From a virus: a stretch of 64,000 nucleotides of DNA. The stretch lies in IMG/VR virus record IMGVR_UViG_3300030102_007788, positions 33,139-97,138 of that record; one strand, given 5' to 3'. The translations under genes and the position numbers were made by a program. Of this stretch, positions 13,516 to 62,033 are shown one piece after another; the first letter of the stretch is position 1; the number at the start of each line of letters is the position of its first letter. The notes beneath the pieces are model-generated. The model did not search any database and was not told the DNA's origin. It worked only from the letters and a program-made list of their open reading frames with translations.

Positions 13516-13696
13516 CTTTTTCTACAAGGCTTGTTTTTACGCTTTTCATTAGGCCCATTATCCTATCGAATTCAACTAATTCGCCGTTTAGTTTTTTTCC
13601 CTCGAAATTGTCTAAATCGTTACAAAGAGCGATTATATCACAAGTTATTTGCTTTAATTTAAAAGCATCCGGAGAAAAAACATATGAGCGGGACAT
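13502..13696 (-). CDS. Hypothetical protein
   Basis: A 64-residue protein starting MSRSYVFSPDAFK, mostly helical in appearance. It lies downstream of nrdB with a 17-base gap and may belong to the same operon. No recognised family. Confidence 0.5.
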   Translation of the reverse strand: MSRSYVFSPDAFKLKQITCDIIALCNDLDNFEGKKLNGELVEFDRIMGLMKSVKTSLVEKDEYL

Positions 13697-13713
13697 ATCT
13701 GTAAAAAATTACA

Positions 13714-26691: not shown

Positions 26692-27584
26692 AAAATTATA
26701 ACGCTTGTATTTCTTATATATCCTCACGAGAGAACTGTATAGGTAACTCTCTAAAGTCACTACATGATAACTTTAATTATAAATACAACTACCCTGTCTA
26801 CGTTCATTATTTTGACGATATATATTCTCATCCCGATTTACTAAAGTCAGTACATGAGCAAATAGGTGATTACATCCAATTTATCAAAATAGATTATAAC
26901 ACCCCAAAACATGTAAAAAAGGAAGACTTATTTTTTAATAGAGATTTGTGGTATGTGAATAATCATTTTTCCGTACATAGGATTGGTTACTTGCATATGT
27001 GTCATTTTGTTAGCAACATGTTTGAGTATCCCAACACTAAGTTTCATGAGTATGATTACGTAATGGTTCATGACGATGAAGCTGGATACAATTCAGAATT
27101 ACCTTACAACCCATTTGAAATTCTCTCTGAGCGGGAAGAATTTTTAGGTAGTTTTAAATCAGGCCAAAGGTTAAGAGACGGCAAACCTCACCAAGGTCAC
27201 TTAGACACTAGAATTGGTCTTTGTGAACTAACAGTTAATTTCTTAAAAAAGAATAACATAACCCCTAAAAATAAAAAGTTATTAAATTTGTTAGATAGCG
27301 ATACTGCTGAAAGTGACTTTCACTTTTTAGATTGGTGCGACACTTACGTCCTTAAAACATCAATGTTTAAAACTGATATATGGAAACTCTGGATAAAGGA
27401 GGTGAACGAAAGTGGAGGTATCTACAAATACCGCTGGGGAGACAATGAAATAATTAGCCTATTTGCGCATTTTGTTCAAGAGGAAATTTTTGATTTTAAA
27501 GCTGTTGAGGAGGGATACCACGACTTAGGTAAATACAGAAGACTACAAGACACCGCGCCAAGTGTGCAAGACCTAAATAAATGA
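26688..27584 (+). CDS. Glycosyltransferase family 15-like (Kre2/Mnt1 type)
   Basis: A 298-residue protein. YDYVMVHDDEAGYNSELPYN near residue 123 corresponds to the acidic donor-binding stretch of the Kre2/Mnt1 alpha-1,2-mannosyltransferases. KYRWGDNEIISLF near residue 246 matches the signature RWGDAPV-H-S-I of that family. GT15 enzymes are known chiefly from fungi. The protein lacks a membrane anchor. In this context it may add a mannose-type sugar. Overlaps both neighbours by four bases. Confidence 0.65.
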   Translation: MKNYNACISYISSRENCIGNSLKSLHDNFNYKYNYPVYVHYFDDIYSHPDLLKSVHEQIGDYIQFIKIDYNTPKHVKKEDLFFNRDLWYVNNHFSVHRIGYLHMCHFVSNMFEYPNTKFHEYDYVMVHDDEAGYNSELPYNPFEILSEREEFLGSFKSGQRLRDGKPHQGHLDTRIGLCELTVNFLKKNNITPKNKKLLNLLDSDTAESDFHFLDWCDTYVLKTSMFKTDIWKLWIKEVNESGGIYKYRWGDNEIISLFAHFVQEEIFDFKAVEEGYHDLGKYRRLQDTAPSVQDLNK

Positions 27585-28516
27585 CCTTTTACATCATAGA
27601 GCCTCATTTTCACTATCAACAGTTTTCTTATTATTCTACATTAGCAAAAGAAATAGTAAAAAATGAAGATGCCCAAGTAGCCCTAAATCCAAATTCTATC
27701 CAAGACATACCAGAATCTCTTTCTAAAGAGAATTGTATTTTTTTAGGCTTGGGTTTTTTCGATAGCAAATGCTATGAAAAACATTTTTCTAACTTCCTGA
27801 ATACAAAGGCTTTAAAAATAGCATACTTGCATAAAGTAAAAAACTCCTATCAAGAAAAAATAAACTTCTGCAAAAGCCATAAGGTAGATTTGATTCTAAC
27901 TTCCACCCCCTTAGAAAAAGAAATACAAGAAGATTCAGGTATACGAACTTTCACTTTACCATATGGAGCAGATCCCAATACTTTCAATATTGCCCCTGAT
28001 GTTAAAAAACAATATGACATAAGCTTCAGCGGCGCTATGCATGAAAACAAGCAGGGTGTACCAGAAGAATTATTAAACATAAGATTTAAAGCGCGTGATC
28101 TTATCAAAGAAAGAAAAGACTTGTCTATTTTTTGGAATGGCTCTGACGACCCCAGTCAATCCTATAGAATGTCCCAGCCTGAATATGTCAAAAAACTAAA
28201 TCAAAGCAAGATCTGGTATGCTGCGACTGGGCCAGCTTGGGACATGAACCCTCGTCATTCTGAAATTTTATTTTGCGGAGCTGTTTTGCTTACAAACGAA
28301 ACCCCTAGCGGTTATTATGACCAATGGGAGGACGGTTTTAATTGTGTTCGATACAAGACGGATCTGTCAAATCTTAATGAAAAAATAAATGAAGCGTTAG
28401 AAAAACAAGAATTTATAAGCAAAAACGCATATAATTTTGCGTTAGATAATTTAACTCCTAATAAAATTTACGAAAGACTTAAGTGGATAATAAAGCAAAA
28501 TTTAAAGATAATTTAA
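27581..28516 (+). CDS. CgeB-like glycosyltransferase (GT-B)
   Basis: A 311-residue protein whose C-terminal third reads MNPRHSEILFCGAVLLTNET then PSGYYDQWEDGFNCVRYKT, the layout of the Glyco_trans_1_2/CgeB group. GADPNTFNIAPDVKKQYDIS precedes it. It overlaps the radical SAM gene by 34 bases. Confidence 0.72.
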   Translation: MTFYIIEPHFHYQQFSYYSTLAKEIVKNEDAQVALNPNSIQDIPESLSKENCIFLGLGFFDSKCYEKHFSNFLNTKALKIAYLHKVKNSYQEKINFCKSHKVDLILTSTPLEKEIQEDSGIRTFTLPYGADPNTFNIAPDVKKQYDISFSGAMHENKQGVPEELLNIRFKARDLIKERKDLSIFWNGSDDPSQSYRMSQPEYVKKLNQSKIWYAATGPAWDMNPRHSEILFCGAVLLTNETPSGYYDQWEDGFNCVRYKTDLSNLNEKINEALEKQEFISKNAYNFALDNLTPNKIYERLKWIIKQNLKII

Positions 28517-29337
28517 AGCTTATAGAGATAGAAATTTTTTCTTTCTGTAATAGGAAGTGCTGGTTTTGCCCCAACTCTTATGTGGATCGTATTTCAGAAA
28601 CAACTTTCATGAATGAGGAAGTATATTTAGGCCTCATCAAACAACTTCAGGAAATAGATTATTCAGGCGAGTTAACATACAGCAGATACAACGAGCCCCT
28701 TTCTTACCGAGAAGTTTTTACTAAAAGAGTAAAACAAGCTCGTAAACTTTTACCAAATGCAACCTTAAGAACAAATACTAACGGAGATTATATAACTAGA
28801 GATTACATAGAAGAGCTTTGTGACATAGGGCTAGATCAACTTTGGATTCAACAGTATTTAGCTAATCAAGAAAGGTACAATCATGCTAAAGTAAAATCAA
28901 AAATGATATCTAAAATTAAAAAATTAGACTTACCTTACGAAACGCTTGTTGATATAGAAGGCTGTAAAATAGAGTTTGACCTCTCTCACAGGGATACCAC
29001 AATTCACCTTAGGGCAAGAAACTTTGCGATTGACGGATCTAGCAGAGGAGGTACCGTACCTATTGCAGAGCAGTACACAAGAACACAACGATGCCTTCAG
29101 CCGTTTCATAATATGTACATTGATTACAACGGGCACGTTATGGTGTGTTGCGCCCTAAGGTCTGACGTGGAGCCTTACGACGAAGGTAGAATGGGGCACA
29201 TAAACCAAGGTAAATTATGGGACATACATTCTAGCGACACCTATAAACCTTGGAGGGAGCACCATAAAGAAGACGGCCCCAAAGAGGGGGTTTGCAAAAC
29301 TTGCAGAGACAATGTCAAGCCATCTTATCTAGAATGA
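28483..29337 (+). CDS. Radical SAM enzyme with SPASM-like C-terminus
   Basis: A 284-residue enzyme. CNRKCWFC puts Cys22, Cys26 and Cys29 in the CxxxCxxC motif that holds the SAM-cleaving Fe4S4 cluster. The C-terminal part has more cysteines (C204, C222, C223, C271, C274; CKTC) in the SPASM pattern, which holds an extra cluster. Such enzymes make epimers, dehydrogenated sugars or peptide modifications. The substrate is unknown, but its place within the sugar island points to a sugar or glycan precursor. Starts at GTG. Confidence 0.82.
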   Translation: MDNKAKFKDNLKLIEIEIFSFCNRKCWFCPNSYVDRISETTFMNEEVYLGLIKQLQEIDYSGELTYSRYNEPLSYREVFTKRVKQARKLLPNATLRTNTNGDYITRDYIEELCDIGLDQLWIQQYLANQERYNHAKVKSKMISKIKKLDLPYETLVDIEGCKIEFDLSHRDTTIHLRARNFAIDGSSRGGTVPIAEQYTRTQRCLQPFHNMYIDYNGHVMVCCALRSDVEPYDEGRMGHINQGKLWDIHSSDTYKPWREHHKEDGPKEGVCKTCRDNVKPSYLE

Positions 29338-30110
29338 AAACAGCGGTACTTATAACAGGTCAACTTAGAGACTATAAGATAAATTGCCTTAACCATGTCA
29401 AGCATCTTATAGAACCCAACAACGCAGATGTTTTTGTTTATGCATGCACTCAAAATACTATTCACAACTGCGGTAAGAGTCTAGACCAGAAATATTATAG
29501 AACTGCTAACTATGGCAAAGATGAGATAATTGATAATGTAAGTGAAATATATGGCAATTACTTAAAACTTGTAGAAGTAGATGAAAATGAAAAGTTAACG
29601 GAGGATGACTTTGGCACACTTGGATATTTCAGAACAAGGATGCAAAACCAAATAGATAACATAGGCAAAGGTTTTGCTATGGCTAAGTCCCATGACGATT
29701 ATGACGTTATAATTAGATGCAGACCTGACAACTCTATGTACTTGCAGCCTGTCAAAGTTAAGGATTTCCCTTTTAACGACACTACAATATATAGCACGGT
29801 TTTTATGCCATCTAGGCATAGGGATTTATGTTTTTTTGCGATGGCTAACCCACACGTATTTGAAAAATACTGCTCTTACGAATACCTTAAAGGGGAAGAC
29901 CCAAATAGAAAGGATAGTAACTTTTTATGCACGGAGCACGCTTGGGAGGGGTATTTAATGCAAAACGGCATAAATGTTCAATATATACCAGATGTATGCA
30001 GGCCATTCACTCAATTTGACAAAAGCACAAAAGTAGCAGATTTCCCATACAGAAACGAAAAAGAAAAGTTGGTGGATCATCACGGAAATTGGGTAGATCA
30101 AGTAATATAA
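29334..30110 (+). CDS. Glycosyltransferase-like protein
   Basis: From the ATG at 29334 (overlapping the previous stop, ATGA) the protein has 258 residues. The N-terminus MKTAVLITGQLRDYK is typical of a small group of predicted phage and viral glycosyltransferases. DDYDVIIRCRPDNSMYLQPV near residue 120 holds a D-N-D-like donor site. No certain family. Confidence 0.55.
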   Translation: MKTAVLITGQLRDYKINCLNHVKHLIEPNNADVFVYACTQNTIHNCGKSLDQKYYRTANYGKDEIIDNVSEIYGNYLKLVEVDENEKLTEDDFGTLGYFRTRMQNQIDNIGKGFAMAKSHDDYDVIIRCRPDNSMYLQPVKVKDFPFNDTTIYSTVFMPSRHRDLCFFAMANPHVFEKYCSYEYLKGEDPNRKDSNFLCTEHAWEGYLMQNGINVQYIPDVCRPFTQFDKSTKVADFPYRNEKEKLVDHHGNWVDQVI

Positions 30111-30991
30111 TGCAGCCTGTTATAAGAGTAGACTTTACCGTAGGGTTTGGTAATAACTTATTCCAATTTGTTTACGCTAAATTATTAGCTGAAAAAATCG
30201 GAGCCAAGATTTATATTCTCTCTCCTATTACAGACTACTTTGGAATAGATTGCCTAGACTTGCTAGTAGCAGACGACACCTATGAAAATGTTTCTGTATA
30301 TTTTTCTAGTAAAATTTTTGAAAACGGGCTTCCCTTAAAACAGGTGACTACCGAGCAGCAGGCTAAGACCGAGCTAGAGAACCCTTCAAAGTGCAACTAT
30401 TTACTTAATGGTTATTTCGAAGATTATACGTTATACGAAACCCATCTTGAAAAAATTAGATCTTGGTTTATTAGACCTGATGTTATAGATAAAGAAAATG
30501 CAGTCTTGCATCTAAGGTTAGGAGATAGGTTATTCATCCCCACAACTTACCAACAGGAAAGTCTTCTTACTTTCGATAAGTATAAACGCGGCTTAGATCA
30601 AATGGATTTTGACAAACTTTACATTGTTTCTGACCTACCTGAGTGGAGGCATTTTAAATATGATGAGCTTTTACAATACAGATACCACGTTAAGGTTGAG
30701 GAAAATACTCTCGAAATGTCTGCAAAAGCTGCTAATTACGTAAACGAATTAGTTGAAAAATTTTCAAATTCATATAAAATAAGCTTTTGTAACGGTAATC
30801 TTAGTTCTGATTTTTATAAGATTATGAGCTACGATAAAATTATTTTTGGCTATAGCACTTTCGCTTGGTGGGCAGCCGCTTTAAGCGGCGCTTCTAAAGT
30901 AGGTGTTTTTGAACCATGGAGGCCATGGAAAAAAGAAAATAATAAAAATTTAGGTAAAACAAGCTACCCCGGTTGGTTTGGGTGGAAATAA
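30110..30991 (+). CDS. Alpha-1,2-fucosyltransferase-like (GT11)
   Basis: From the ATG at 30110 (TAATG overlap) the protein has 293 residues. The GT11 motifs are present: GFGNNLFQFVYAKLLAEK at the start, LHLRLGDRL in the middle (H-x-R-x-G-D) and FGYSTFAWWAAALSG near the end. GT11 uses GDP-L-fucose. Two genes down lie the enzymes that make GDP-L-fucose, which supports this call. Confidence 0.8.
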   Translation: MQPVIRVDFTVGFGNNLFQFVYAKLLAEKIGAKIYILSPITDYFGIDCLDLLVADDTYENVSVYFSSKIFENGLPLKQVTTEQQAKTELENPSKCNYLLNGYFEDYTLYETHLEKIRSWFIRPDVIDKENAVLHLRLGDRLFIPTTYQQESLLTFDKYKRGLDQMDFDKLYIVSDLPEWRHFKYDELLQYRYHVKVEENTLEMSAKAANYVNELVEKFSNSYKISFCNGNLSSDFYKIMSYDKIIFGYSTFAWWAAALSGASKVGVFEPWRPWKKENNKNLGKTSYPGWFGWK

Positions 30992-30995
30992 AATT

Positions 30996-31934
30996 ATGAA
31001 ACATATAGTAACAGGCGGAGCGGGTTTTATAGGAACTCACTTAGTTAAAAAACTTGTAGAGCAAGGTGATGAGGTAGTTGTAATTGATAATCACTCCTCC
31101 TCTGGCGGTGAACTTTTAAATGAGAACAGTTTAAAAGAATCTGTGACAACAATTTCTGGCGATATATCGTATATAAAAACCCAGACAGGCTTGCATCATA
31201 AGTTAAAAGACGCTTTTGAAGGTGTCGATACTGTTTTTCATTTAGCTGCGAGAGCTAGAGTGCAACCTTCAATTGAAAATCCAGTATTTTTTAATGCGAC
31301 TAACGTTGAAGGAACATTAAACATGCTGGAGTATGCGCGAGAAGCCAAGGTTAGAAGGTTTGTTTTTACTTCCTCTTCTTCTCTTTATGGCGATACAGAA
31401 GTTTTTCCAACTCCCGAAACGCTGGAGCCTAACCCCTTAAGCCCCTACGGTCTACAAAAACTAATAGGAGAACAGTATTGCCAGTTATATTCTCGCATCC
31501 ACGATATGGATACAGTGTGCTTAAGATACTTTAATGTTTACGGAGAAGGAGCTCCAACAAAAGGTGCTTATTGTCTCGTTATGGGTATATTTATCAGGCA
31601 AGCACTTGAAGGAAAAAATTTAACTATATATGGAAACGGGCAGCAACGCAGGGATTTTACTTATGTAGGCGATGTTGTAAACGCCAATATCTTAGCCTCT
31701 AAGTGCGATAAAAAGTTCGCGGGAGAAGCTTTCAATATAGGGAACGGAGAAAACAAAAGCGTTCAAGAGATTGCAGACGTTTTCAAGCTGCCCTGCGATT
31801 ATTTACCGGCAAGATTAGAGCCCCAACAGACCTTAGCGGATAATTCTAAAGCTAAGGAAGTGCTAGGGTGGGAACCTACCGGAGATGTTGTAACGTGGCT
31901 GGAAAGACATTTAACAGAAATACTTAAAAAATGA
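30996..31934 (+). CDS. SDR NAD-dependent epimerase/dehydratase acting on a sugar nucleotide
   Basis: From the ATG at 30996 the protein has 312 residues. GGAGFIGTHLVKKL binds NAD. The catalytic set is SSSSLYG and PYGLQKLIGEQ (Y-x-x-x-K). RYFNVYGEGAPTKGAY follows. It is closest in shape to UDP-GlcNAc/UDP-Glc 4-epimerases and UDP-sugar dehydratases; which one cannot be told. Confidence 0.82.
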   Translation: MKHIVTGGAGFIGTHLVKKLVEQGDEVVVIDNHSSSGGELLNENSLKESVTTISGDISYIKTQTGLHHKLKDAFEGVDTVFHLAARARVQPSIENPVFFNATNVEGTLNMLEYAREAKVRRFVFTSSSSLYGDTEVFPTPETLEPNPLSPYGLQKLIGEQYCQLYSRIHDMDTVCLRYFNVYGEGAPTKGAYCLVMGIFIRQALEGKNLTIYGNGQQRRDFTYVGDVVNANILASKCDKKFAGEAFNIGNGENKSVQEIADVFKLPCDYLPARLEPQQTLADNSKAKEVLGWEPTGDVVTWLERHLTEILKK

Positions 31935-32863
31935 AAATATTCATAGCAGGGCATAATGGTCTTGTTGGTTCAGCCATCAAGAGAAGGTTAGCGGGAGAAG
32001 ACGTTGAAGTAATTTATGCTAATAGGCATAGCTTAGACCTACTCGACCAAAGGGCAGTAGGGTACTTCTTCGAAGCGAATAAGCCAGACGTTGTCATAGA
32101 TGCCGCAGCCAAAGTTGGAGGTATTCACGCTAACAATATCTATCCAGCAGATTTCATTTATCAAAATTTACAGATTCAAAATAATATAATTCACAGCTGC
32201 TTTGAAAACAAAGTTAAGAAGTTAATTTTTTTAGGTAGTATATGTATTTACCCAAAGTTTGCTGAGCAACCAATCAAGGAAGAATACTTACTGACTTCAC
32301 CCCTTGAGCCTACTAACGAACCCTATGCCGTAGCAAAGATAGCTGGAATTAAGATGTGTCAAAGTTATTACCGCCAGCATGATTGTGATTTCTTTTCTTT
32401 GATGCCAACGAATCAATACGGGCCTAATGATAATTTTCACCCCGAGAATTCTCATGTTTTACCAGCCCTTTTACGACGTTTTCATGAAGCTAAACGAGAC
32501 GGTGTGCCTTCTGTTAAGGTGTGGGGCACGGGTAAAGCTAAAAGAGAGTTTCAATATGTTGACGACTTGGCTGATGCTTGCGCTTTTGCTATTGAAAATA
32601 TTACAGCAGCCGATGTCTACGAAAACGGAGCCACACATTTAAACGTGGGAACAGGGGAAGAGTGGTCAATAGAAGGCTTGGCTCAAAAGATAGCTCAAGT
32701 TGTCGGTTACGAGGGCGATATATTGTTTGACGATAGAAAGCCAGACGGAGTACTAAGGCGTGTTGGAGACAACTCTCGTATAAACAAATTAGGCTGGAGT
32801 CACAAATACTCTTTAGAAGAAGGTCTCGATTTAACCTATAATTGGTACAAGGATAATGTCTAA
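31931..32863 (+). CDS. fcl: GDP-L-fucose synthase
   Basis: A 310-residue SDR enzyme, the second step of GDP-L-fucose synthesis: epimerisation and reduction of GDP-4-keto-6-deoxymannose. GHNGLVGSAIKRRL, AAKVGGIHANN, LGSICIYPKFA, EPYAVAKIAGIKM and REFQYVDDLADA are all hallmarks. Adjacent gmd gives the substrate. Confidence 0.93.
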   Translation: MKIFIAGHNGLVGSAIKRRLAGEDVEVIYANRHSLDLLDQRAVGYFFEANKPDVVIDAAAKVGGIHANNIYPADFIYQNLQIQNNIIHSCFENKVKKLIFLGSICIYPKFAEQPIKEEYLLTSPLEPTNEPYAVAKIAGIKMCQSYYRQHDCDFFSLMPTNQYGPNDNFHPENSHVLPALLRRFHEAKRDGVPSVKVWGTGKAKREFQYVDDLADACAFAIENITAADVYENGATHLNVGTGEEWSIEGLAQKIAQVVGYEGDILFDDRKPDGVLRRVGDNSRINKLGWSHKYSLEEGLDLTYNWYKDNV

Positions 32864-33896
32864 GAGAGTATTAGTAACAGGAATCACTGGGCAAGACGGT
32901 TCCAACATGGTTGATTACTTGCTAAAAAATACCGATCACTTAATTTTTGGTATGGCAAGAAGGTCGTCTAACATAAATTTAGAAAACTGTACTGATTTTA
33001 TTGATGACGAAAGGTTTCAGTTAGTTTACGGAGACCTAACGGACAGCTTTTCAATCGCTAAATTAGTACAAGAGATTCAACCAGACTATTTTATAAATTT
33101 CGCCGCCAACTCTTTTGTTGGATGTAGCTGGGATATGCCTGAGCACGTAATGGACACTAATACTGTTGGCACCATTAGGTGCTTAGAGGCTATTAGGAGA
33201 TATCAACCTAAATGTAGATATTACAGTGCCGGAAGTTCAGAAGAGATGGGAGACGTAGATTACAGCCCACAAGATAAAGCTCACCCACCTAAACCCAGAA
33301 GCCCATATGGAGTATCCAAAGTAGCGGCTAGATATTTAGTTAAAGTTTATAGAGAGTCCTATGGAATCTTCGCCATTCATGGCATCTTGTATAATCACGA
33401 GGGTATCCGAAGAGGCGAAGAGTTCGTTACCCGTAAAATTACCAAGGGAGTTGCTCGTATATTATGTGCAATGGACCAAGGGAAGGAATTTGACCCGATC
33501 TCGCTAGGCAATATAAATTCCAAGCGAGATTGGTCTGATTCTGAAGATTTCATCCATGGAGTTTGGCTTATGCTTAATCAAGATGAGCCAAAAGAATATA
33601 TTCTATCCAGCAACGAAACTCATACAATAAAAGAGTTTGTTGAAGTAGCTTTTGAAGCTGCTGGTATTGAAGGCACATGGAGCGGAGAAGGGATAAACGA
33701 AAAATATACATGCTCCCTTGACAAGACTCCATTAGTAGTAATATCTGAGAAATTTTATCGCCCCTGTGAGGTAGATATTCTTTATGGCGATTCTACCCCA
33801 ATAAGAGAAGAGCTAGGATGGAAACCTGAATGGGACTTTAATGGTTTAGTAACTAGAATGGTAAACAATGACATTCGGTTGAAAAAAAATGGATGA
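32856..33896 (+). CDS. gmd: GDP-mannose 4,6-dehydratase
   Basis: A 346-residue SDR enzyme, the first step from GDP-mannose to GDP-L-fucose. GITGQDGSNMVDYLL, RSSNINLENC, AGSSEEMGDV, PRSPYGVSKVAARYLV and YNHEGIRRGEEFVTRKITKG follow the family closely. Overlaps fcl by eight bases. Confidence 0.93.
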   Translation: MSKRVLVTGITGQDGSNMVDYLLKNTDHLIFGMARRSSNINLENCTDFIDDERFQLVYGDLTDSFSIAKLVQEIQPDYFINFAANSFVGCSWDMPEHVMDTNTVGTIRCLEAIRRYQPKCRYYSAGSSEEMGDVDYSPQDKAHPPKPRSPYGVSKVAARYLVKVYRESYGIFAIHGILYNHEGIRRGEEFVTRKITKGVARILCAMDQGKEFDPISLGNINSKRDWSDSEDFIHGVWLMLNQDEPKEYILSSNETHTIKEFVEVAFEAAGIEGTWSGEGINEKYTCSLDKTPLVVISEKFYRPCEVDILYGDSTPIREELGWKPEWDFNGLVTRMVNNDIRLKKNG

Positions 33897-36446: not shown

Positions 36447-36719
36447 ATGAGTAAAAGCCAAACGACAAGAATTCCGGACTCGCTCCTAGATCAAATTAGT
36501 GAGTGGTCTTGCGGAGGATTCATGTTATTTAATTTCGATGAGGATGGTAATCCCCAAGTATACTCAAAAGTAGAGAGTGAAAAGAACGCTATGTCTCTAC
36601 AATACTTAATTAACCATTGGTCTGAAGCCATGGAATCGATGAATTCAGATACTTTCATTAAAAATTTAAATAGTGCTTTTGACGATCCAGAAGAAGAAGG
36701 ATACGAAGACGATGAGTGA
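36447..36719 (+). CDS. Hypothetical acidic protein
   Basis: A 90-residue protein from the ATG at 36447 (92 from 36441). The C-terminus is strongly acidic (DDPEEEGYEDDE). It overlaps the tubulin-like gene by eight bases. No recognised family. Confidence 0.5.
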   Translation: MSKSQTTRIPDSLLDQISEWSCGGFMLFNFDEDGNPQVYSKVESEKNAMSLQYLINHWSEAMESMNSDTFIKNLNSAFDDPEEEGYEDDE

Positions 36720-37977
36720 TACCGATATAAACCAATACTACCCACAGGACGAAGTTCCTCCTGTTACTTTAACTGCTGGCGAGGCACCAGAAGCTGCTCC
36801 CGCAACACCAGAAGAACCCAAGCCAAATACTGAGGAGGCTCCAGCTACGGAACCTGTAGAAGACTTGGGCATTGATTTACCAGATATTCCACTACCCGAC
36901 GACGAACCGATAGAAGACGCGATCAAAGATACTTTTGACGATGCTGCTTTTAACTTTGCGGTTGTGGGTGTCGGGCAAGGAGGTTCTAGGCTGGCTGAGT
37001 CTTTTTGGAACTTGGGTTATCGTCGTGTTGGTGTTATTAACACCGCTCAACAGGATCTTTCTTTGATCAAAATTCCTGAATCAAATAAATTGCTAATTGG
37101 TGATGGAGGAGCTGGTAAAAATCCTGACGCCGCTGATGAGGTATTTAGAACTAGATATGAAGACATATTAGATTTTCTTAAAAAGACTTTCGGCGCTGGA
37201 TACGAAAGGGTTCTGGTGTGTGCTGGCGCAGGTGGAGGCACCGGAGCGGGAGGGGTCGCTAGGGTTTTGGAAATTTGCCATGATCTAAATCAGTCTCTCG
37301 GAAAAGAGACTAAGGATACTGACGCAAAGGTTGGATGCATTCTTGCGTTACCAACTAAAGGCGAAGGTATCAAAGTCCAAGACAACGCTAAGAAAACGAC
37401 ACTTAAAGTCTTAGACTTGCAAAAAGCTGGCGTTATCTCCCCGTTGGTTATACTGGACAATGAAAAAATTAAGCAGCTTTATCCCAAGCTGAGCGTAAAT
37501 CAATTTTGGACTACTGCAAATAGCAGTATCTGTTCTGTATTTCATTTGTTCAATAAGATTTCCGCTAAAGAATCTGCTTATACTACTTTTGACAAAGCTG
37601 ATTTGGATACTATTTTCTCATCGGGAATTATTATGTTTGGAGCAACTCCTGTTAAGGATACATCCGAAACTGGCATTTCTTACGCCGTGAGAGATAATTT
37701 GCGTAAGAATATTTTAGCAGGCGTTGACGCATCAACCGGAAACGTTGCTGCTTGTATCATTATCGGAGACAAAGATTCTCTTGACAATATCCCTCAGTCT
37801 AGCTTAGAACATGGGTTTGAACAATTGAGTCGGATGATGGGTTCAGGCTCAACAGTTCACCGCGGTATTTATGCTGGCGCCAAGAAAGGCGTAGCCGTTT
37901 ATACTGCTATCGGAGGTCTGCAGGCACCTGAAAACCTGTTCGATTATTTCTTCAAAGTGGACCGAGTATATAAATAG
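36712..37977 (+). CDS. FtsZ/tubulin-like GTPase
   Basis: A 421-residue protein. Residues 1-78 are an acidic, Pro/Ala/Glu-rich tail. The GTPase part starts at VVGVGQGGSRLAESFWNLGY (84-103). AGAGGGTGAGG (171-181) is the tubulin signature GGGTG(S/T)G that grips the GTP phosphates. TFDKADLDTIFSSGIIMFG (292-310) matches the T7 loop and strand of FtsZ, with Asp294 and Asp297 in place for GTP hydrolysis. So it looks active, and closer to FtsZ than to PhuZ. Phage tubulins position DNA or the replication zone in the host cell. The N-terminal tail is unusual. Confidence 0.85.
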   Translation: MSDTDINQYYPQDEVPPVTLTAGEAPEAAPATPEEPKPNTEEAPATEPVEDLGIDLPDIPLPDDEPIEDAIKDTFDDAAFNFAVVGVGQGGSRLAESFWNLGYRRVGVINTAQQDLSLIKIPESNKLLIGDGGAGKNPDAADEVFRTRYEDILDFLKKTFGAGYERVLVCAGAGGGTGAGGVARVLEICHDLNQSLGKETKDTDAKVGCILALPTKGEGIKVQDNAKKTTLKVLDLQKAGVISPLVILDNEKIKQLYPKLSVNQFWTTANSSICSVFHLFNKISAKESAYTTFDKADLDTIFSSGIIMFGATPVKDTSETGISYAVRDNLRKNILAGVDASTGNVAACIIIGDKDSLDNIPQSSLEHGFEQLSRMMGSGSTVHRGIYAGAKKGVAVYTAIGGLQAPENLFDYFFKVDRVYK

Positions 37978-37980
37978 TAT

Positions 37981-39486
37981 ATGCCCATATATTCTAATCA
38001 AGTCGAGCATCATGTGCTCGGCGGGCTGCTAAAACACCCAACTGTCCTTTCGGAGATTGATTCTTTTGTTAGTATAGGTGATTTCTACAACGATGTTCAT
38101 CAGACTATATATTGCGTATTAAGAGATTCTATCCTTAGCGATGATAAGATCGATAAGGTGCTAATTGCTACAAAGATATCTAATTTAGGTATTTCCTCAA
38201 AAGATGATATCGAGATATACGATTATATAAATACTCTTTTCCACACCCCAATTACTAAAGGCGCTGTTATAGAAGCTTGCAAGGAATTGGTTAAGTTTAG
38301 AATCAGAAGAGAGTTAAGCGAGACTGCTGACAGAATAAAAGATCATGTTAAGAATTCTTCATGCGAAACATTAGAGGATATTATATCTAAGTCAGACTCT
38401 ATATACGGGGACAAGGTAACTAGCTACTCCTTTGAGGATGACCCTAAAAATGTTTTTGATGATTTAGAATACCTCATTGAAGAGAGGGGCAACAACCCAG
38501 TCGAGGACACAGGACTCGCTACGCCTTACAATGAGTTTAATCGATTGTTTGGCGGCCTAAGAGACGGTAACGTATATGCAATTGTTTCTAGACCAGCGCA
38601 GGGTAAAACTACTTTCATAAACGACATCTGCCTTGGCACCGCAATCAAAGCAAACGTGCCAGTACTAGTACTGGATACAGAGATGACAACTGAAGAGATT
38701 CAGTTTCGTATGGCAGCAGCAAATACTGGAGTCCCTCTGTGGTATTTGGAAACTGGTAAGTTCAGAAATAACAAAGAAATGTTAAATAAGGTTAGAAACT
38801 ATTTTAATAACCTTAAGACCCATAATTACTTCCACTACCATGTAAAAAATAAAAACGTTGACGAGATATGCGCTTTAATTAGGAGGTGGCATATGAAGCA
38901 TGTTGGCCGAGGTAATAAATGCATTATAGCTTACGACTATGTAAAACTTACAGGTGAAAAGGTAAGTCAAAACTGGGCAGAGCACCAAGCTATCGGCGAG
39001 AAGATTGATAAACTTAAAAGGATAGCTGAAGAAATAAAAGCTCCACTTATTACTGCTATGCAGATGAATAGGTCGGGAGAAAGCCATAACAGAAATTCTA
39101 ATACTCTTGTTGACGATAGTTCAGTAATATCGTTATCCGATAGACTTCAGTGGTTTGCTACATTCGTAGCCATCTTTCGGCGAAAGACGGTAGACGAAAT
39201 AGCGTTAGATGGAGAACGTTTTGGTACTCATAAACTTGTACCACTTAAAACTCGATTCCAAGGTAAGGACGCAGCAGGTCACCAAGATTTAATTCGTCGG
39301 CAAACTGTAGAAACTATAAATGGCAGAGAGGTTGAAAGTGAAAGATTGATGAACAACTTCCTTAACTTCACCGTAGAGAACTTTAAAGTGTCAGAGCAAG
39401 GGTCACTTCAAGACATCATCAGATTTGAGTCTCAGAATTTTGATATACAGTCTGGAAACAATGATGACGACGGATTACTAATATGA
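37981..39486 (+). CDS. dnaB: DnaB-like replicative helicase
   Basis: A 501-residue protein. The N-terminal domain (SNQVEHHVLGGLLKHPTVL) matches the DnaB N-domain. RecA-like core: SRPAQGKTTF Walker A at 203-212, LVLDTEMTTEEIQFRMAA, Walker B CIIAYDYVKL, and ITAMQMNRSGE with the helicase Gln/Arg sensors. It unwinds the phage fork and works with the next gene, the primase. The C-terminus is acidic (NNDDDGLLI). Confidence 0.92.
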   Translation: MPIYSNQVEHHVLGGLLKHPTVLSEIDSFVSIGDFYNDVHQTIYCVLRDSILSDDKIDKVLIATKISNLGISSKDDIEIYDYINTLFHTPITKGAVIEACKELVKFRIRRELSETADRIKDHVKNSSCETLEDIISKSDSIYGDKVTSYSFEDDPKNVFDDLEYLIEERGNNPVEDTGLATPYNEFNRLFGGLRDGNVYAIVSRPAQGKTTFINDICLGTAIKANVPVLVLDTEMTTEEIQFRMAAANTGVPLWYLETGKFRNNKEMLNKVRNYFNNLKTHNYFHYHVKNKNVDEICALIRRWHMKHVGRGNKCIIAYDYVKLTGEKVSQNWAEHQAIGEKIDKLKRIAEEIKAPLITAMQMNRSGESHNRNSNTLVDDSSVISLSDRLQWFATFVAIFRRKTVDEIALDGERFGTHKLVPLKTRFQGKDAAGHQDLIRRQTVETINGREVESERLMNNFLNFTVENFKVSEQGSLQDIIRFESQNFDIQSGNNDDDGLLI

Positions 39487-40379
39487 GCGATGGTATTAAA
39501 GATATCTTAACAGAGATAGGTTATACTCTTCGTGACTGCGGTAAGGAGTATAGAACTAAACCCCTATACAGAGATTCTGATAACCCAAATGTATTATGTA
39601 TTCAAAAAGAAACTGGTGTTTGGTTTGACTTCAAAGAAAACAAATACGGAAAGCTAGAAGATCTAGTAAAGCTCACCTTAGACCTCAAAGATATCTCAGA
39701 GGCAAAAGATTTCATCAAAAGCAAGGGCGTAACGCATACCGTAGCTCGACCAAAAGAAAAACTAAAAAGCCAAGCCTTTTACAAGTTAGATAATTTGAGT
39801 AAAATGTTTCCCGAGTACGAATACTGGGAGAGTAGAGGTGTTAGCTCCACCACACTGAAGATGTTAGAAAGCGGAGTGATGAAAGAGGGAAAATTAAACA
39901 GTAGATATGTTTTTCCTATTTTTGATGGTTATGATCGATTGGTAGGTTGCGCAGGGAGAGATATCACTAATAAAAGCCCGATAAAATGGAAACTTTTAGG
40001 GGAAAAGAGGTACTGGGTCTATCCTTTTAAATACAATAAAGATGAAATATTAAAAACCAAACACGTATTCCTAGTCGAAAGCATTGGCGATATGCTAAGC
40101 TTATGGGAAGCTGGGATTAAAAATACTTTAGTTTTATTCGGTTTATCCGCGTCATCAAAAATTAAACAAATCTTGATGATGTTAAATCTGGATAAAATTT
40201 ATATTTCCCTCAATAATGATGAAAGCGAAGCGGGGAACAATGCTGCGAAAAGCATTTACGTAAGCCTCTCTAATCATTTTGACAATAACCAGTTACAAAT
40301 TGAACTTCCAACTAAAAACGATTTTGGTTGTATGTCAAAAGAAGAAATATTAACATGGCACAAAAGAATAAAGATGTAA
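39483..40379 (+). CDS. TOPRIM-type DNA primase
   Basis: A 298-residue primase without the long DnaG C-terminal helicase-binding domain. GVWFDFKENKYG near residue 48 resembles the zinc-less N-terminal phage primase domain. SRYVFPIFDGYDRLVGCAGR then VFLVESIGDMLSLWEAGI holds the TOPRIM Glu, and KIYISLNNDESEAGNNAAKS the acidic metal site. Its start overlaps dnaB by four bases. Confidence 0.82.
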   Translation: MSDGIKDILTEIGYTLRDCGKEYRTKPLYRDSDNPNVLCIQKETGVWFDFKENKYGKLEDLVKLTLDLKDISEAKDFIKSKGVTHTVARPKEKLKSQAFYKLDNLSKMFPEYEYWESRGVSSTTLKMLESGVMKEGKLNSRYVFPIFDGYDRLVGCAGRDITNKSPIKWKLLGEKRYWVYPFKYNKDEILKTKHVFLVESIGDMLSLWEAGIKNTLVLFGLSASSKIKQILMMLNLDKIYISLNNDESEAGNNAAKSIYVSLSNHFDNNQLQIELPTKNDFGCMSKEEILTWHKRIKM

Positions 40380-41353
40380 AAGAAAGAATACTTTCAGCAT
40401 CTAGAATTAAGACCCTCGAGACTTGTTCTTGGTCATATTGGTGCAACTATCACCTAAAAGTACCACAGAAGCAAAATGAGGGCGCCTTACGGGGTACTGT
40501 GTGCCATCTAGTGTTTGAAATGCTTGTCAAACCCAAACATAAAAAACATTTTACTAAAATTTTAAAGGCTAGCAGTATTCACGGTAGCCCTGCTGTTTTG
40601 CGTATGGTAATGAAGCACCTCACGCAAATGGAAAAAAGCTTTGACCTACCCATGACCAATGAGGAGAACACCGAATTGGTTGATGACATGATAGTTGTAG
40701 GCCTGAACTGCGATTTTTTTGGGAAAGGAGGTAAAGTTGACAAGCCTGAGCATGAGTTTCTTCTGGAAAGTAAAGATCCCGAATACAAAATAAGGGGCTT
40801 TATTGACAAACCTATAGTCTACAAAAAAGGTAAAAAGATTAAAATTGTAGATTATAAAAGTAGTAAGTATAAATTTCGTGGGGAAGAACTGCACTCAAAT
40901 GTTCAAGCGATGGTTTATACTCTGGCTGCTCAAAAAGAGTGGGAAGGTTATACCCCTACTGTAGAATTTCAATTTCTGAGACACCCCCGCAGCCCATTGC
41001 AGCAGCTACAGTTTAATAAAGAGCAGCTTCGAGGACTAGAGTATTATCTAGCTCATACTTTTTTTATTATAAATAATTTTACAGAAGAAACCGCCAAAAC
41101 TAACTATGCGGCAGACACCAAGAAAAATTCTTGGCTATGTAAGATTGGAAAATGGAGATGCCCTTACTTAGATGCGTATGATTACTTTGCTATTGTAGAC
41201 AAAGAAGGTAAAGAAATTAAAAGCTCTTTTAAGCGTAAAGACTTGGTAGGCAAAGTTTTAGATGGGCAAAAAATTAAAAAAAAGAATTACCCCGGATGCC
41301 CTCGTCACGAGCCGCAAAGCGCCTCAGAGAATATCCTTGACATGTTTACCTGA
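40355..41353 (+). CDS. PD-(D/E)XK nuclease of the RecB/Cas4 type
   Basis: A 332-residue protein from the ATG at 40355. SASRIKTLETCSWSYWCNYH holds the first cysteines; GFIDKPIVYK then KIVDYKSSKYKFRGEELHSN gives the D...D-Y-K nuclease core; C-terminal CKIGKWRCPY and CPRH could complete an Fe-S cluster as in AddB/Cas4. Probable exonuclease in recombination or replication. Overlaps primase by 25 bases. Confidence 0.75.
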   Translation: MAQKNKDVKERILSASRIKTLETCSWSYWCNYHLKVPQKQNEGALRGTVCHLVFEMLVKPKHKKHFTKILKASSIHGSPAVLRMVMKHLTQMEKSFDLPMTNEENTELVDDMIVVGLNCDFFGKGGKVDKPEHEFLLESKDPEYKIRGFIDKPIVYKKGKKIKIVDYKSSKYKFRGEELHSNVQAMVYTLAAQKEWEGYTPTVEFQFLRHPRSPLQQLQFNKEQLRGLEYYLAHTFFIINNFTEETAKTNYAADTKKNSWLCKIGKWRCPYLDAYDYFAIVDKEGKEIKSSFKRKDLVGKVLDGQKIKKKNYPGCPRHEPQSASENILDMFT

Positions 41354-41373: not shown

Positions 41374-42138
41374 ATGGAGGAAATTGTCCCGCTGTTTAAA
41401 AGTCATTGTAGTCTCGGGAGGTCAATACTGACCTTAGAGAAACCAAAGGATGAGGCTGACCCTGAAACCAGTGATTCAGTTTTCGATATAGTCAAGCAGG
41501 AAAACTTAGAGGATGTTTTTCTAGTCGAGGATAATATGACAGGTTTTCTTCAGGCCTACACAAATGCAGAAGAACTTGGAGTTAAACTAGTTTTTGGACT
41601 GCGCATTACTTTTTGCCCAGACCACGCAAATAAATCAGAAGAGGGAAGGAAAAATTCTTACAAAAATATTATATTTGCCAAGAACAACGCTGGGTATAAA
41701 CAGTTAATAAAAATATATACTCACGCATCTCAGGATGGCTTCTATTATGAACCGCGTACAGATAACGCTAAATTTAAAGAGTTTTATACGGAAGACCTGA
41801 TGTTGGCGATACCTTTTTATGATTCTTTTCTGTATGTTAATAAATATACAGACTCAAGCTGTGTTCCGAATTTTTCTTTTTGTGATCCAATTTTCTTTGT
41901 TGAGGATAACGACGTGTTAGTCGATCAAGATTTGGAAGCTTCAGTGCATAAGTTTTGTGATGGTAAATATGACATAATCAAAACAAAAAGTATATTTTAT
42001 AAAAATAAGACAGACTTCGGAGCTTATTTAACACACCGATGCATCAGTAAAAGAACCAGTTTGGAAAAGCCAAACTTTGATGGTATGTGCTCTAATGAAT
42101 TTTGTTTTGAAAGCTACAAGGAGGTAGTGAATGGATAG
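41374..42138 (+). CDS. Free-standing PHP domain of DNA polymerase III alpha
   Basis: A 254-residue protein. FKSHCSLGRSIL fits the start of the polymerase PHP domain. TNAEELGVKLVFGLRITFC and KNIIFAKNNAGYKQLIKIYT follow the DnaE PHP line by line, as does GFYYEPRTDNAKF. The DHGN motif is changed to EDNM, so a metal site His is lost and the domain is probably not a nuclease. The rest of the polymerase is the gene at 43012; the DEDDh exonuclease lies between. Overlaps the next gene by eight bases. Confidence 0.75.
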   Translation: MEEIVPLFKSHCSLGRSILTLEKPKDEADPETSDSVFDIVKQENLEDVFLVEDNMTGFLQAYTNAEELGVKLVFGLRITFCPDHANKSEEGRKNSYKNIIFAKNNAGYKQLIKIYTHASQDGFYYEPRTDNAKFKEFYTEDLMLAIPFYDSFLYVNKYTDSSCVPNFSFCDPIFFVEDNDVLVDQDLEASVHKFCDGKYDIIKTKSIFYKNKTDFGAYLTHRCISKRTSLEKPNFDGMCSNEFCFESYKEVVNG

Positions 42139-42796
42139 CCATTTAATTAGATTTCAAGAGAAAAAGTTTTTGTTTTTGGATTTTGAAACGTTTAATTTAA
42201 ATTTAAACAACGAGTTTAATTTACCTTGGCAAGTTGCCACGTTATATCTAGAAACGAGGAACAATGGAAATGGGAAGTTAATCACGGATGAGTTGTGCAG
42301 GCACGACTTGTATATTAAATGGGATACAGATTTAAAAATAGGAGAAGGAGCCAGAAGGATTACTGGCTATTCCGAAACTAAATTTAAAAGTAGGTGCATA
42401 CCGCAAGAGGAAGCTTTTAAAAAAATATACAACTTGTGCGAAGAGTGTGATTACATCGTAGGGCATAATGTTTTAGGGTTTGATATATACCTTTTAAGAG
42501 ACTGGTACAGAGCTCACAGTAAAGAATATAAACATTTACCATTTAAAGTAATTGATACTTTAGCTTTTGCTAGATCAATAGCAATAGACTATAGCTTCGC
42601 AAACAGTGGTAGCTCTTTATTTGAATTTCAAATGAAGATGCTTAATGTAAGAAAAAAGGGCCTAAAAACCAGCTTGGGAGCTCTAGGCAAGTCTTATTCA
42701 ATAGATCATGATTATGAAAAACTTCATGACGCTTTAGTTGATTTAGAACTTAACAGTAAAGTCTGGGATAAAATTAAACTCCAGATAGATTTTTAA
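42131..42796 (+). CDS. DnaQ-like DEDDh 3'-5' exonuclease (proofreading)
   Basis: A 221-residue protein. FLFLDFETFNL (motif I, D-x-E), YIVGHNVLGFDIYLL (motif II) and KLHDALVDLELN (motif III with H and D) are all present. Its place between PHP domain and polymerase core of a split Pol III makes it the likely proofreader of that polymerase. Confidence 0.85.
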   Translation: MDSHLIRFQEKKFLFLDFETFNLNLNNEFNLPWQVATLYLETRNNGNGKLITDELCRHDLYIKWDTDLKIGEGARRITGYSETKFKSRCIPQEEAFKKIYNLCEECDYIVGHNVLGFDIYLLRDWYRAHSKEYKHLPFKVIDTLAFARSIAIDYSFANSGSSLFEFQMKMLNVRKKGLKTSLGALGKSYSIDHDYEKLHDALVDLELNSKVWDKIKLQIDF

Positions 42797-42812
42797 ATAA
42801 TTAAAAAGCGGC

Positions 42813-42818
42813 TATAAT
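42813..42818 (+). promoter_or_regulatory. TATAAT box before the small gene at 42825
   Basis: GCTATAATATGG with a TATAAT six bases before an ATG at 42825. No -35 hexamer is seen. Similar GCTATAATA lies before hsp20. Possibly an extended -10 or phage sigma promoter. Confidence 0.35.
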
Positions 42819-42824
42819 ATGGTT

Positions 42825-43064
42825 ATGGCCAGTTTAGATTTTGTATATGACCTTACAGATAGATTTGAAGAAGATAATATTGAGTATGTTGTCGTCGCTC
42901 TACGAGAAGGTAAAGAATTAGATAAAGTAGATGTATTTTATAAAACAAAACCAGAGTCAAAGGCCTCTATGCTTACTGCCTTGGAACAGCTTTCAAAGTT
43001 AATAAAAGAAGATGACGGAGATAGTTCAGACGGCAAAAAAAAGAAGAGGCGAAGGAAAAAATAA
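42825..43064 (+). CDS. Small protein between exonuclease and polymerase core
   Basis: A 79-residue protein (81 if the ATG at 42819 is used). Mixed alpha/beta start (FVYDLTDRFEEDNIEYVVVA), an acidic hinge, and a very basic tail (GKKKKRRRKK). It overlaps the polymerase gene by 53 bases. It may hold the split polymerase together or bind DNA, but no family is recognised. Confidence 0.6.
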   Translation: MASLDFVYDLTDRFEEDNIEYVVVALREGKELDKVDVFYKTKPESKASMLTALEQLSKLIKEDDGDSSDGKKKKRRRKK

Positions 43065-45642
43065 ATTTTCCAGTAGGTTTAAGTCTCTAAACGTTCCCCT
43101 ACATGGAGTAAGATTACCAACGTTTACTCCTGAAAAAAAATATCTAGAAGAATATGGGGTCGATGAATCGGCTTCTAATTTAGAATTCTTGAAGCAGATT
43201 TGCCGCAAGAGGTTCAAAGAACTCAAACTCGGGGAGAAAACGAACTCCAAAGAGTACAATGACCGAATGATCAAAGAGCTTAACTTGATCGAAGAGTTAG
43301 GGTTCGTTGATTATATGCTTCTTGTCTGGAAGGTTATAAGATTCTGCAGGGACGGGGATATACCCCTAGGTTTAGGAAGAGGTTCCGCTGCGGGGAGTTT
43401 GGTTTTATATCTTCTTCACGTTACCTCTATTGACCCAATCAAGTATGGTTTGTTTTTTGAAAGATTTGTTTCTAAAGCTCGCGCTAAAAAAAGTGTTGTA
43501 GATGGGGTGACTTATCTTGATGGAGACTTGATGTGTGACGTTGATATAGATGTATGTTATTACAGGCGTCAAGAGATATTGCAGTACCTCAAACAAGAAT
43601 TTGAAGGTTATAGTTCTAAAATTTTAACGCTCAACACGCTTTCCGGTAAACTTGTAATGAAGGAGTGCGGTAAAGTTGTCGCGGAGAAAAATGAAGTTGA
43701 AATGAATCAAGTGTCAGGAATGATACCTAAAATTTTTGGTCAGGTTATGGACATAGCCGATGCAAGAGAAGAGGTTCCTGAGTTTGACGAATGGTGTGAT
43801 AATAATCCTAAAGTTTTTAAGATTGCTCAAAAGATAAAAGGACTGATTAAAAATAAAGGGGTTCATGCTTCAGCGGTCATGCTATCTTATCATAAAACTA
43901 TAGATAGCTGTCCCTGCGAGCTTGACTCATCAAAAGAGCCTGTCTCCTCTTTTGAGGCTGACTGGGTTAACAAATTTAATGTTAAATTAGATGTTTTAGG
44001 TTTAAGAACTTCTTCCGTGGTTCACGAATGTTGCAAAACGATTAGAGAGATAAGAGGCGAAGAGCTTTATCCCGAGACTATTGATTTAGATAATCCAGAA
44101 ATTTATGAGTTATTAAATAGAGGGATGGAGGAAGGCCTCTCAAGCGGACTGTTTCAAATTGAAGGTGATTTGGCTGCTCAAACTTGCACCAAAGTTAAAC
44201 CTACCAACTTTGAACATTTAAGTGCTGTTCTAGCACTAGCTAGGCCGGGAGCAATGGACTACATTGATCGTTATGCTGAATACGTTAACGAAAAAATCTA
44301 TGAACCTGTCCATGAGTTCTTTGATGAGATCTTAGAGGAAACTGGCGGCATCGTTCTTTACCAAGAACAGATGATGAAGATGGCAAATAAAATCGGCTTC
44401 ACTCTCGACGAGGCTGAAATTTTACGCCGTATTGTCGGTAAGAAAAAAGTCTCAGAAGTTAAAAAATGGAAAAAGAAGATTAGAGATAAAGTCAAGGAGA
44501 ATAATCTAGCAAAGGAAATTGGAGACGTACTTTGGAAAGTATTAGAGGACTCTGCTAATTACTCTTACAATAAATCGCATTCGGTTTCTTATGCAGCTTT
44601 AGCTGCCGCTACTGCTTACTTAAAATTTAAATATCCTCGTGAATTTTACTTGTCGTTACTTAAAATGACAAAGTATGAACCTAAACCTTTAGAGGAAATA
44701 GCCAGCATATCCCGCGAGCTAAAGTTAATGGGAATTAAATTGCTCGGGCCAAACTTATTGAAGTCTGAAATGGATTTTTCTGTCGAGGGAGAAAATATTA
44801 GATTTGGCTTAACTTCAATTAAGGGTATTGCTGAAAAGTCTATAGAAAAGCTAGAGTCTTTTAAAGACCAATACTCGAACAAGTTTGAAGTGTTCCAAGG
44901 AGCCAACCAAGCAGGGATTGGAGTAGGTATATTATCATCCCTTATTCAAGCGGGGGCTTTGGACGGAGATATAAAGCAATCTAGAAGTAAAATAGTAGCC
45001 GAAGCACAACTTTGGAATTTACTAACAGCAAGAGAGCGTGGTCTAGTTTTTGATATTGCGGCTGAATACAATTACGATTTGTCTAAGATAGTTCAAATGA
45101 TGTTTAAAGAGCTCAAAGATATCAAAGGAAAACCTTTGATTAAAGAGTCACGGATGAACACTATCCGAAAACATTTTGCGCCGTATAAAGAAATCTACAA
45201 TAAAAATAGCGCTAATGAAGATTTTGCAAACTGGTACTATGAAAACATATTACTAGGATATACTTACGGTAAAAGATTAAAGGACGTAAGCCCCGAGTAC
45301 AATCATTTAGTTTCTATTGAAGATGCTTTACAAGCAGGGGAGGGCTCAGTTTCCTTTATCGGTACTGTTGAAGATACTTGGCTAACTAAAAGTAAGAAGG
45401 GAACTCCTTACTTTAAGATAACCATGAAAGATGAATCTGCCGATTGCACCGTTATGATTTTTTCTAACAAGAAAAAAGACAACATTGAGGAATGTAAACG
45501 CGCCAACGATGGAGTGCTACCCAAAAAGGGTAATATTGTAATTATAAAAGGCGTAGTAAAAGAAGGTAATACTGTTTTTGGTAATTTAGCCAAAGTACAG
45601 GATCAAAAAATTTATATGAAATTAAGCGAGATAAAGTCTTGA
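43012..45642 (+). CDS. dnaE: DNA polymerase III alpha core (lacks PHP domain)
   Basis: An 876-residue polymerase that starts where a PHP domain normally ends. GLGRGSAAGSLVLYLL (about 120-135) and IDPIKYGLFFERFV precede the catalytic CDVDID (175-180) carrying two of the metal-binding Asp; VKLDVLGLRTSSVV near 323 gives the third. GVHASAVMLSY, LFQIEGDLAAQTC, KSHSVSYAALAAATAYLKFK and an OB fold near the end (GSVSFIGTVEDTWLTK) follow the bacterial order. The first 20 residues are unusual. It lacks the PHP domain, which is the gene at 41374. Its stop lies within the promoter for the SSB-like gene. Confidence 0.9.
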   Translation: MTEIVQTAKKRRGEGKNKFSSRFKSLNVPLHGVRLPTFTPEKKYLEEYGVDESASNLEFLKQICRKRFKELKLGEKTNSKEYNDRMIKELNLIEELGFVDYMLLVWKVIRFCRDGDIPLGLGRGSAAGSLVLYLLHVTSIDPIKYGLFFERFVSKARAKKSVVDGVTYLDGDLMCDVDIDVCYYRRQEILQYLKQEFEGYSSKILTLNTLSGKLVMKECGKVVAEKNEVEMNQVSGMIPKIFGQVMDIADAREEVPEFDEWCDNNPKVFKIAQKIKGLIKNKGVHASAVMLSYHKTIDSCPCELDSSKEPVSSFEADWVNKFNVKLDVLGLRTSSVVHECCKTIREIRGEELYPETIDLDNPEIYELLNRGMEEGLSSGLFQIEGDLAAQTCTKVKPTNFEHLSAVLALARPGAMDYIDRYAEYVNEKIYEPVHEFFDEILEETGGIVLYQEQMMKMANKIGFTLDEAEILRRIVGKKKVSEVKKWKKKIRDKVKENNLAKEIGDVLWKVLEDSANYSYNKSHSVSYAALAAATAYLKFKYPREFYLSLLKMTKYEPKPLEEIASISRELKLMGIKLLGPNLLKSEMDFSVEGENIRFGLTSIKGIAEKSIEKLESFKDQYSNKFEVFQGANQAGIGVGILSSLIQAGALDGDIKQSRSKIVAEAQLWNLLTARERGLVFDIAAEYNYDLSKIVQMMFKELKDIKGKPLIKESRMNTIRKHFAPYKEIYNKNSANEDFANWYYENILLGYTYGKRLKDVSPEYNHLVSIEDALQAGEGSVSFIGTVEDTWLTKSKKGTPYFKITMKDESADCTVMIFSNKKKDNIEECKRANDGVLPKKGNIVIIKGVVKEGNTVFGNLAKVQDQKIYMKLSEIKS

Positions 45643-45678: not shown

Positions 45679-46245
45679 ATGTTACAGTTCTATAAACCTA
45701 ATCCAAAAAATAGCGGCTCCGCCTGTTCGTTCTCCTACAGCAAAAAAGACAAAGCTGTCTGGGTGAATTTCGTTAAACAAGCTACTTGGAACGACCAAAC
45801 CAAAACTGGAACGTTCAAGAGCTCTGGCCCAGACAAGAAGGCTAACTCAAAGTTTAATATAACTGAGGTAGCTGGAGTTGTCCGAGCCATTGAGCAAAAT
45901 AGCGAGTTTGGCAACTTTCACGGAAACAAGGAAAGAAACACCACCTTTAAGTTTTGCCCATATTTACGAGACGGCAAACAAGTAGGTTATAGCTTTTCCT
46001 TGAACCAGAATGATTCTCAAGCTAACGTAAAGAAATCTTTTATCATTGGGTTCACCTTTGAAGAAGGCAGGATGTTGAAAGAGTATGCTTTGGCAGCTAT
46101 GAGAAATTATTTTGATACCGTTATCGACGAAAGCAATTACGGCGGAAATGGTCAAAATACTAAGCCAAATGAGGAAAAAGTAGAAAATACGGCTCCTTCC
46201 ACGAATAATAACCAAGGTGGCAACGTTGGTGATATTCCGTGGTAA
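45679..46245 (+). CDS. Probable single-stranded DNA-binding protein
   Basis: A 188-residue protein. The core contains SKFNITEVAGVVRAIEQNSE, TTFKFCPY and SFIIGFTFEEGRMLKEYALA, an arrangement seen in PC4/Whirly-like phage SSB proteins. After it comes a Gln/Asn/Thr/Gly-rich linker and an acidic-hydrophobic tip VGDIPW, like the D-D-I-P-F tip of bacterial SSB. It comes just after the polymerase gene. Confidence 0.6.
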   Translation: MLQFYKPNPKNSGSACSFSYSKKDKAVWVNFVKQATWNDQTKTGTFKSSGPDKKANSKFNITEVAGVVRAIEQNSEFGNFHGNKERNTTFKFCPYLRDGKQVGYSFSLNQNDSQANVKKSFIIGFTFEEGRMLKEYALAAMRNYFDTVIDESNYGGNGQNTKPNEEKVENTAPSTNNNQGGNVGDIPW

Positions 46246-59547: not shown

Positions 59548-59576
59548 TTGACTTGTTTCCCTGCATCAGTTATGCT
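59548..59576 (+). promoter_or_regulatory. CCCTG-type promoter for rIIA
   Basis: TTGACT (59548-59553), CCCTG (59559-59563), TATGCT (59571-59576), spacer 17. The ATG at 59587 is 10 bases beyond the -10. The rIIA gene thus lacks a normal leader. Confidence 0.72.
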
Positions 59577-59586
59577 GTTCTTCGTT

Positions 59587-62016: not shown

Positions 62017-62033
62017 AAAACGAAAGGACTAAT

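Follow-up and report, generated by a model that had tools for sequence, protein, structure and literature searches.

We analysed a window of 64,000 nucleotides (bases 33139-97138 of the 170,406-bp virus record IMGVR_UViG_3300030102_007788) and found that a DnaE-type DNA polymerase III alpha is encoded there in separate genes: its PHP domain is a protein of its own, followed by a DEDDh exonuclease, a small protein and the polymerase core. We consider it likely that the phage has its own replicase, whose catalytic core is made in pieces from the four genes, with the PHP protein docking in trans. This gene series had been proposed in the original prediction, and all four open reading frames (ORFs) were confirmed on the plus strand, at the following positions of the window:

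41374..42138 (+), stand-alone PHP protein, 254 residues: corresponds to the N-terminal domain of Pol III alpha, without its metal site
42131..42796 (+), DEDDh 3'-5' exonuclease (EXO), 221 residues, epsilon/DnaQ-like: phrog_192 match and catalytic residues
42819..43064 (+), small protein (SML), 81 residues, variable basic or acidic tail, putative accessory: position upstream of the core
43012..45642 (+), DnaE-type Pol III alpha core (POL), 876 residues, with palm, fingers, HhH and OB-like regions: PF07733, PF17657, PF14579 and TIGR00594

The EXO start codon (ATG) and the PHP stop overlap by 8 nucleotides, and the SML and POL ORFs overlap by 53 nucleotides that span a run of eight A (A8).

Two genes cover a near-complete DnaE chain

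The 41374 protein matches the PHP family above the Pfam cut-off (PF02811, E = 6.6e-13), and the profile of its family matches residues 94-252 of T. aquaticus DnaE, to which it is homologous. The PHP assignment thus stands at the level of sequence. POL matches PF07733 (2.6e-57), PF17657 (5.9e-37) and PF14579 (8.2e-13), as well as the NCBIfam model TIGR00594 (445.6 bits, over a cut-off of 434.35). Since PHP covers positions 39-246 of this model and POL positions 286-1022, the two genes rebuild one near-complete DnaE chain, with the gene break right after the end of PHP. The order of palm, fingers, HhH and OB-like regions is that of bacterial DnaE1 (T. aquaticus, E. coli), from which the locus differs in having PHP and core as separate genes with EXO between them.

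Palm and fingers carry the three catalytic aspartates (D178, D180 and D327), which are invariant in 20 POL sequences and which we take to align with E. coli D401, D403 and D555. The D-V-D-I-D motif described earlier is therefore intact, but the catalytic pair is its second and third aspartate (D178, D180), to which D327 must be added. The OB-like stretch (POL residues 781-855) is below the cut-off of PF01336 (E = 0.0016) and weakly matches T. aquaticus residues 1035-1085. The chain ends about 20 residues past it and, unlike bacterial DnaE1, has no room for a tau-binding domain. Beta clamp, clamp-loader (PF13177) and PolA families were not found in the 170-kb record, which is possibly incomplete; because neither a PolA nor a beta clamp family is seen there, POL is probably the phage replicase.

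The split is real and conserved across a lineage

Relatives were collected in a first POL search (57 viral loci), a PHP profile search (547 relatives confirmed, 80 of them fetched) and a POL profile search with the basal clade (353 confirmed, 80 fetched). The searches overlap and the fetched loci, numbered with the prefix L below, are not all distinct contigs; they comprise 207 loci with separate PHP and POL, and 147 distinct PHP sequences. The order PHP-EXO-(SML)-POL is kept in every one of the 207. Where a locus of the first sets extends 4.6 kb or more beyond POL on the upstream side, both PHP and EXO are present (110 of 110), and SML is directly upstream of POL wherever this was checked (75 of 75). 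A PHP domain at the N-terminus of the same chain, as in DnaE, was found in none of the family loci tested. The fused relatives suggested as a check did not turn up inside the clade, and the basal-clade query returned split loci only; the sole fused forms (L056 and L057) are outside the clade, at 29% identity.

The four ORFs recur at 97-99% identity on two contigs (L002 and L003) that come from other metagenome records. In many other relatives, PHP and EXO, or EXO and POL, are separated by unrelated genes (cupin-like, SET-like, HNH-like, glycosyltransferase-like and sulfotransferase-like by inspection), which excludes a single translation product there, so the parts must be translated separately. 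In sampled pairs with unsaturated synonymous divergence (dS), all four genes are under purifying selection: the ratio of nonsynonymous to synonymous rates (dN/dS) is 0.03-0.10, and that of PHP against L003 is 0.035. An assembly error or a decaying pseudogene might be suspected in a metagenomic record with a homopolymer within the SML-POL overlap, yet the 207 split loci, the two near-identical contigs and the low dN/dS leave this explanation a negligible chance. A sequencing error that hides a joined frame, one of two objections attached to the original prediction, was ruled out on the same contigs and loci and on the whole genes that separate the parts; the other, a 41374 protein that is not PHP, is answered by its sequence matches.

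The pieces could also be joined after all, by a +1 frameshift at the A8 run (SML to POL) or by a hidden split intein (PHP to POL). The 53-nucleotide overlap crosses the A8 run, many relatives show the same +1 frame relation, and a split intein does occur inside the POL of some of them. Still, other relatives have a 4-nucleotide overlap in another frame or no SML, no intein halves were seen at the ends of PHP or POL, and whole genes separate PHP from EXO or EXO from POL in relatives. We hold such joining to be very unlikely. The frameshift fusion was rejected after all overlaps were compared, since these differ in length and frame and SML is dispensable, which makes translational coupling the preferred reading of the overlap. 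An intein at the PHP/POL break was rejected on the lack of intein ends. Pol III alpha is made from two genes in cyanobacteria too, where, in work cited by PMC3919608, the DnaE halves are joined by a split intein; the PHP/core break described here has no intein.

In the basal clade the order is PHP-EXO-POL, with SML missing, and a Clp-like AAA+ gene comes directly after POL in the loci examined. As the split is seen in this clade too, it is ancestral to the lineage, and SML is either a later gain or was lost at the base of the lineage. The Clp-type ATPase often overlaps the POL stop (L329 7517-9799, L384 7539-9983, L051 10967-13345, L062 9044-10552).

Among the isolates of INPHARED, no record was above about 33% identity for POL and none was found for EXO. 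The closest genome-assembly matches are contigs in two Flavobacteriales metagenome bins (47% and 41% identity). They give a hint of hosts in Bacteroidota, which is weak because viral contigs are often misbinned. The arrangement is not described in the literature searched, which did not cover two older viral-replicase papers, where an earlier report of a PHP-less viral DnaE is possible.

Some loci show further rearrangements. POL is interrupted at SFN(K/R)^SHS in L044 (8025-11027), L171 and L178 by what looks like a naturally split intein: the N half begins CLSEDTVVET, and the C half runs from MQTLKIKS to VTSN, which SHS follows. L051 (8031-10970) has a contiguous mini-intein at the same site. 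In L184 (7021-9619), POL is broken in the palm into ORFs of 148 and 731 residues with a 44-nucleotide overlap, probably an assembly frameshift. L050 has a 690-residue glycine-rich ORF with the appearance of a tail fibre on the opposite strand between EXO and SML (5289-7361, minus strand).

PHP has lost its metal site and the exonuclease has kept its catalytic residues

Aligned with intact PHP domains (HHDHEHCDH), the PHP protein of the window has all nine metal residues replaced. The change from DHGN to EDNM that had been pointed out is better described as one from TDHGNM to LVE-DNM, in which one residue is deleted. At these positions, all 19 aligned split PHP proteins have gap-K-(E/D)-gap-R-(K/R)-F-(S/T)-x, so that the HHDHEH[C/H]DH motif is intact in 0 of the 19; the D position is E or D and the others are replaced. 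With the metal site gone, the usual metal-nuclease role is impossible for this PHP. The protein has nevertheless its own conserved features: K9, D53 and R77 are invariant in a 22-member alignment, and PFYDS and KSIYY are new motifs found lineage-wide. In L050 (3346-4665), the PHP protein is lengthened to 439 residues by a C-terminal region, and the Pfam match is in the PHP part only.

The exonuclease predicted between PHP and core is supported by a match to PHROG 192, 'DNA polymerase exonuclease subunit' (1.3e-18), and by the invariance of all five DEDDh residues (D17, E19, D118, H199 and D204) in 21 sequences. The EXO of relative L329 also matches Pfam RNase_T over the cut-off (PF00929, 2.3e-9). 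The combination of a lost PHP site and a kept DEDDh site agrees with a bacterial pattern (PMC12926913) in which a DnaQ, either intrinsic or standalone, complements a PHP domain that is inactive. It is also the combination of E. coli.

A similarly degenerate PHP site next to a DnaQ-like gene is found in Pbunavirus and Wifcevirus as well (Pseudomonas phage LBL3, Escherichia phage vB_Eco4M-7n). There, however, PHP is fused to the core and the exonuclease gene is directly upstream of PHP.

The new motifs and invariant residues raise the question of whether PHP is still part of the polymerase. It could have been freed for a role in replication or repair, e.g., as an exonuclease adaptor or regulator, with POL working without it. 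Mycobacterium phage Riparian, whose 770-residue core has no PHP gene in the stretch examined, would fit this explanation. Yet PHP precedes POL in each of the 110 loci whose upstream sequence is long enough, and the two proteins jointly span almost the entire DnaE chain. We thus regard a freed PHP as unlikely.

The 81-residue ORF described as a small basic-tailed protein upstream of the core is present, and its tail is basic or acidic across relatives. Scans of Pfam, NCBIfam and PDB sequences gave no match for SML; its single PHROG match is marginal and to an uncharacterised family. Acidic tips replace the basic tail in L031 (3831-4082, DDDFDF), L037 (6213-6464, DDDQPF) and L050 (7793-8044, NDDEPF), and these resemble the C-terminal tips of single-stranded DNA-binding proteins (SSB).

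The resemblance to PolC is superficial

The original prediction was right that Pol III alpha is split with an exonuclease between its parts, but the link to PolC that it suggested is not supported, given the DnaE-like core and the uninterrupted PHP. In PolC too, PHP, exonuclease and polymerase are encoded together. They form one chain, however, with the exonuclease inserted inside PHP and the OB domain N-terminal to PHP (PMC3919608). If the locus were a PolC-derived replicase broken into genes, EXO would be the remnant of that inserted exonuclease. The gene order agrees with this, and so does the best solved-structure match of EXO, the T. maritima PolC exonuclease (9.5e-9, followed by DnaQ at 8.5e-5). 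Against it, NCBIfam puts DnaQ epsilon families first for EXO, and the EXO gene comes after a complete PHP, not inside it. The POL profile matches DnaE structures at 1e-113 and PolC at only 6e-9 to 5e-7 over about 100 residues, POL has no match to TIGR01405, and its weak OB match lies at the C-terminus, the position usual for DnaE. A DnaE-type core and an EXO after a complete PHP make the PolC resemblance superficial; we rejected PolC descent, which appears highly improbable.

In a tree computed from 40 cores over 770 columns, the split family (19 cores) forms one clade with 100/100 support and a long stem, whose position among DnaE groups is not fixed by this tree. A PHP/core split lacking an exonuclease already exists in an isolated phage, Gordonia phage Suzy (Terapinvirus), where gp64 and gp65 encode PHP (318 residues) and core (811 residues) as adjacent separate genes. 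Unlike the lineage described here, Suzy has a near-intact PHP metal site (HHEHEHCDH) and no exonuclease between the two genes; several fused phage DnaEs, like Suzy, keep the PHP motif. The Suzy core groups with fused phages in another clade, which has strong support, so its split is independent and the PHP/core separation arose at least twice.

A replicase core that may assemble in trans

In the explanation that we favour, a DnaE-type replicase core made in pieces, POL would perform synthesis and the non-catalytic PHP would re-dock on it in trans as a structural subunit, presumably at the position usual for a fused PHP. The separate EXO would proofread, kept beside the core by PHP and/or POL. 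SML may be an accessory translated together with POL, and the gene overlaps would favour coupled translation and assembly.

Several points weigh against this explanation. Conservation of the operon is by itself no proof of binding. E. coli epsilon binds PHP through its C-terminal tail, and EXO has only 17 residues beyond D204; it lacks the PHP/clamp-binding C-terminal segment of E. coli epsilon, so tethering cannot follow the E. coli mode. Furthermore, a QxxLF-like beta-clamp motif after residue 640 is absent in 103 of 108 cores, unlike in bacterial DnaE1, although divergent motifs could escape such a scan. A tentative variant, to which we give a little over one chance in three, would have the free PHP, refitted with invariant motifs of its own once the metal site was lost, tether the tail-less EXO and/or SML to a PHP-less core that has no canonical clamp- or tau-binding parts.

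Genomic context

The four genes lie within a replication block, and several neighbours are conserved:

from 34921, UvsX-like recombinase, in the replication block upstream of PHP
36673-37977, FtsZ/tubulin-like protein, 434 residues, adjoining the replication genes: Pfam Tubulin 3.4e-11
37981..39486 (+), DnaB-like replicative helicase, conserved neighbour: PF03796 6.2e-28
39483..40379 (+), TOPRIM DNA primase-like protein, conserved neighbour: PF13155 2.8e-9, phrog_47 5.6e-24
40328..41353 (+), PD-(D/E)XK nuclease, conserved neighbour: PF12705 4.4e-19, kept gene order
45679..46245 (+), downstream conserved protein ending GDIPW: kept gene order

The FtsZ/tubulin-like protein is below the cut-off of the NCBIfam ftsZ model, and the chain of known structure closest to it in sequence is plasmid RepX (4ei7, 2.9e-12). 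The GDIPW-ending protein, which had no family match in Pfam, PHROG or NCBIfam scans, is a possible SSB, judging by position and tail alone. Elsewhere in the window are NrdA/NrdB, a 2OG-Fe(II) oxygenase and an aminotransferase (8015-17917), about 10 consecutive ORFs of 270-370 residues (22665-33896), of which three were scanned (glycosyltransferase families for two, an epimerase for the last one), and RIIA/RIIB-like lysis inhibitors (59548-62876).

Implications for C-family replicases

In bacterial replicases, the PHP domain is often without catalytic activity. What is left for it to do, be it structure, exonuclease docking or both, is usually examined through mutations of a fused domain. Here, PHP has been cut free naturally in a large uncultured phage lineage, so that assays can be run on PHP, EXO and core one by one or in mixtures. 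The PHP/core junction thus tolerates a gene break, and multi-gene C-family phage replicases exist, in which annotation would leave partial 'DNA polymerase' matches. If PHP does tether the exonuclease in a core assembled in trans, processivity and proofreading would be organised unlike in any studied C-family replicase. With the split lineage, nature itself provides a test of the function of the PHP domain.

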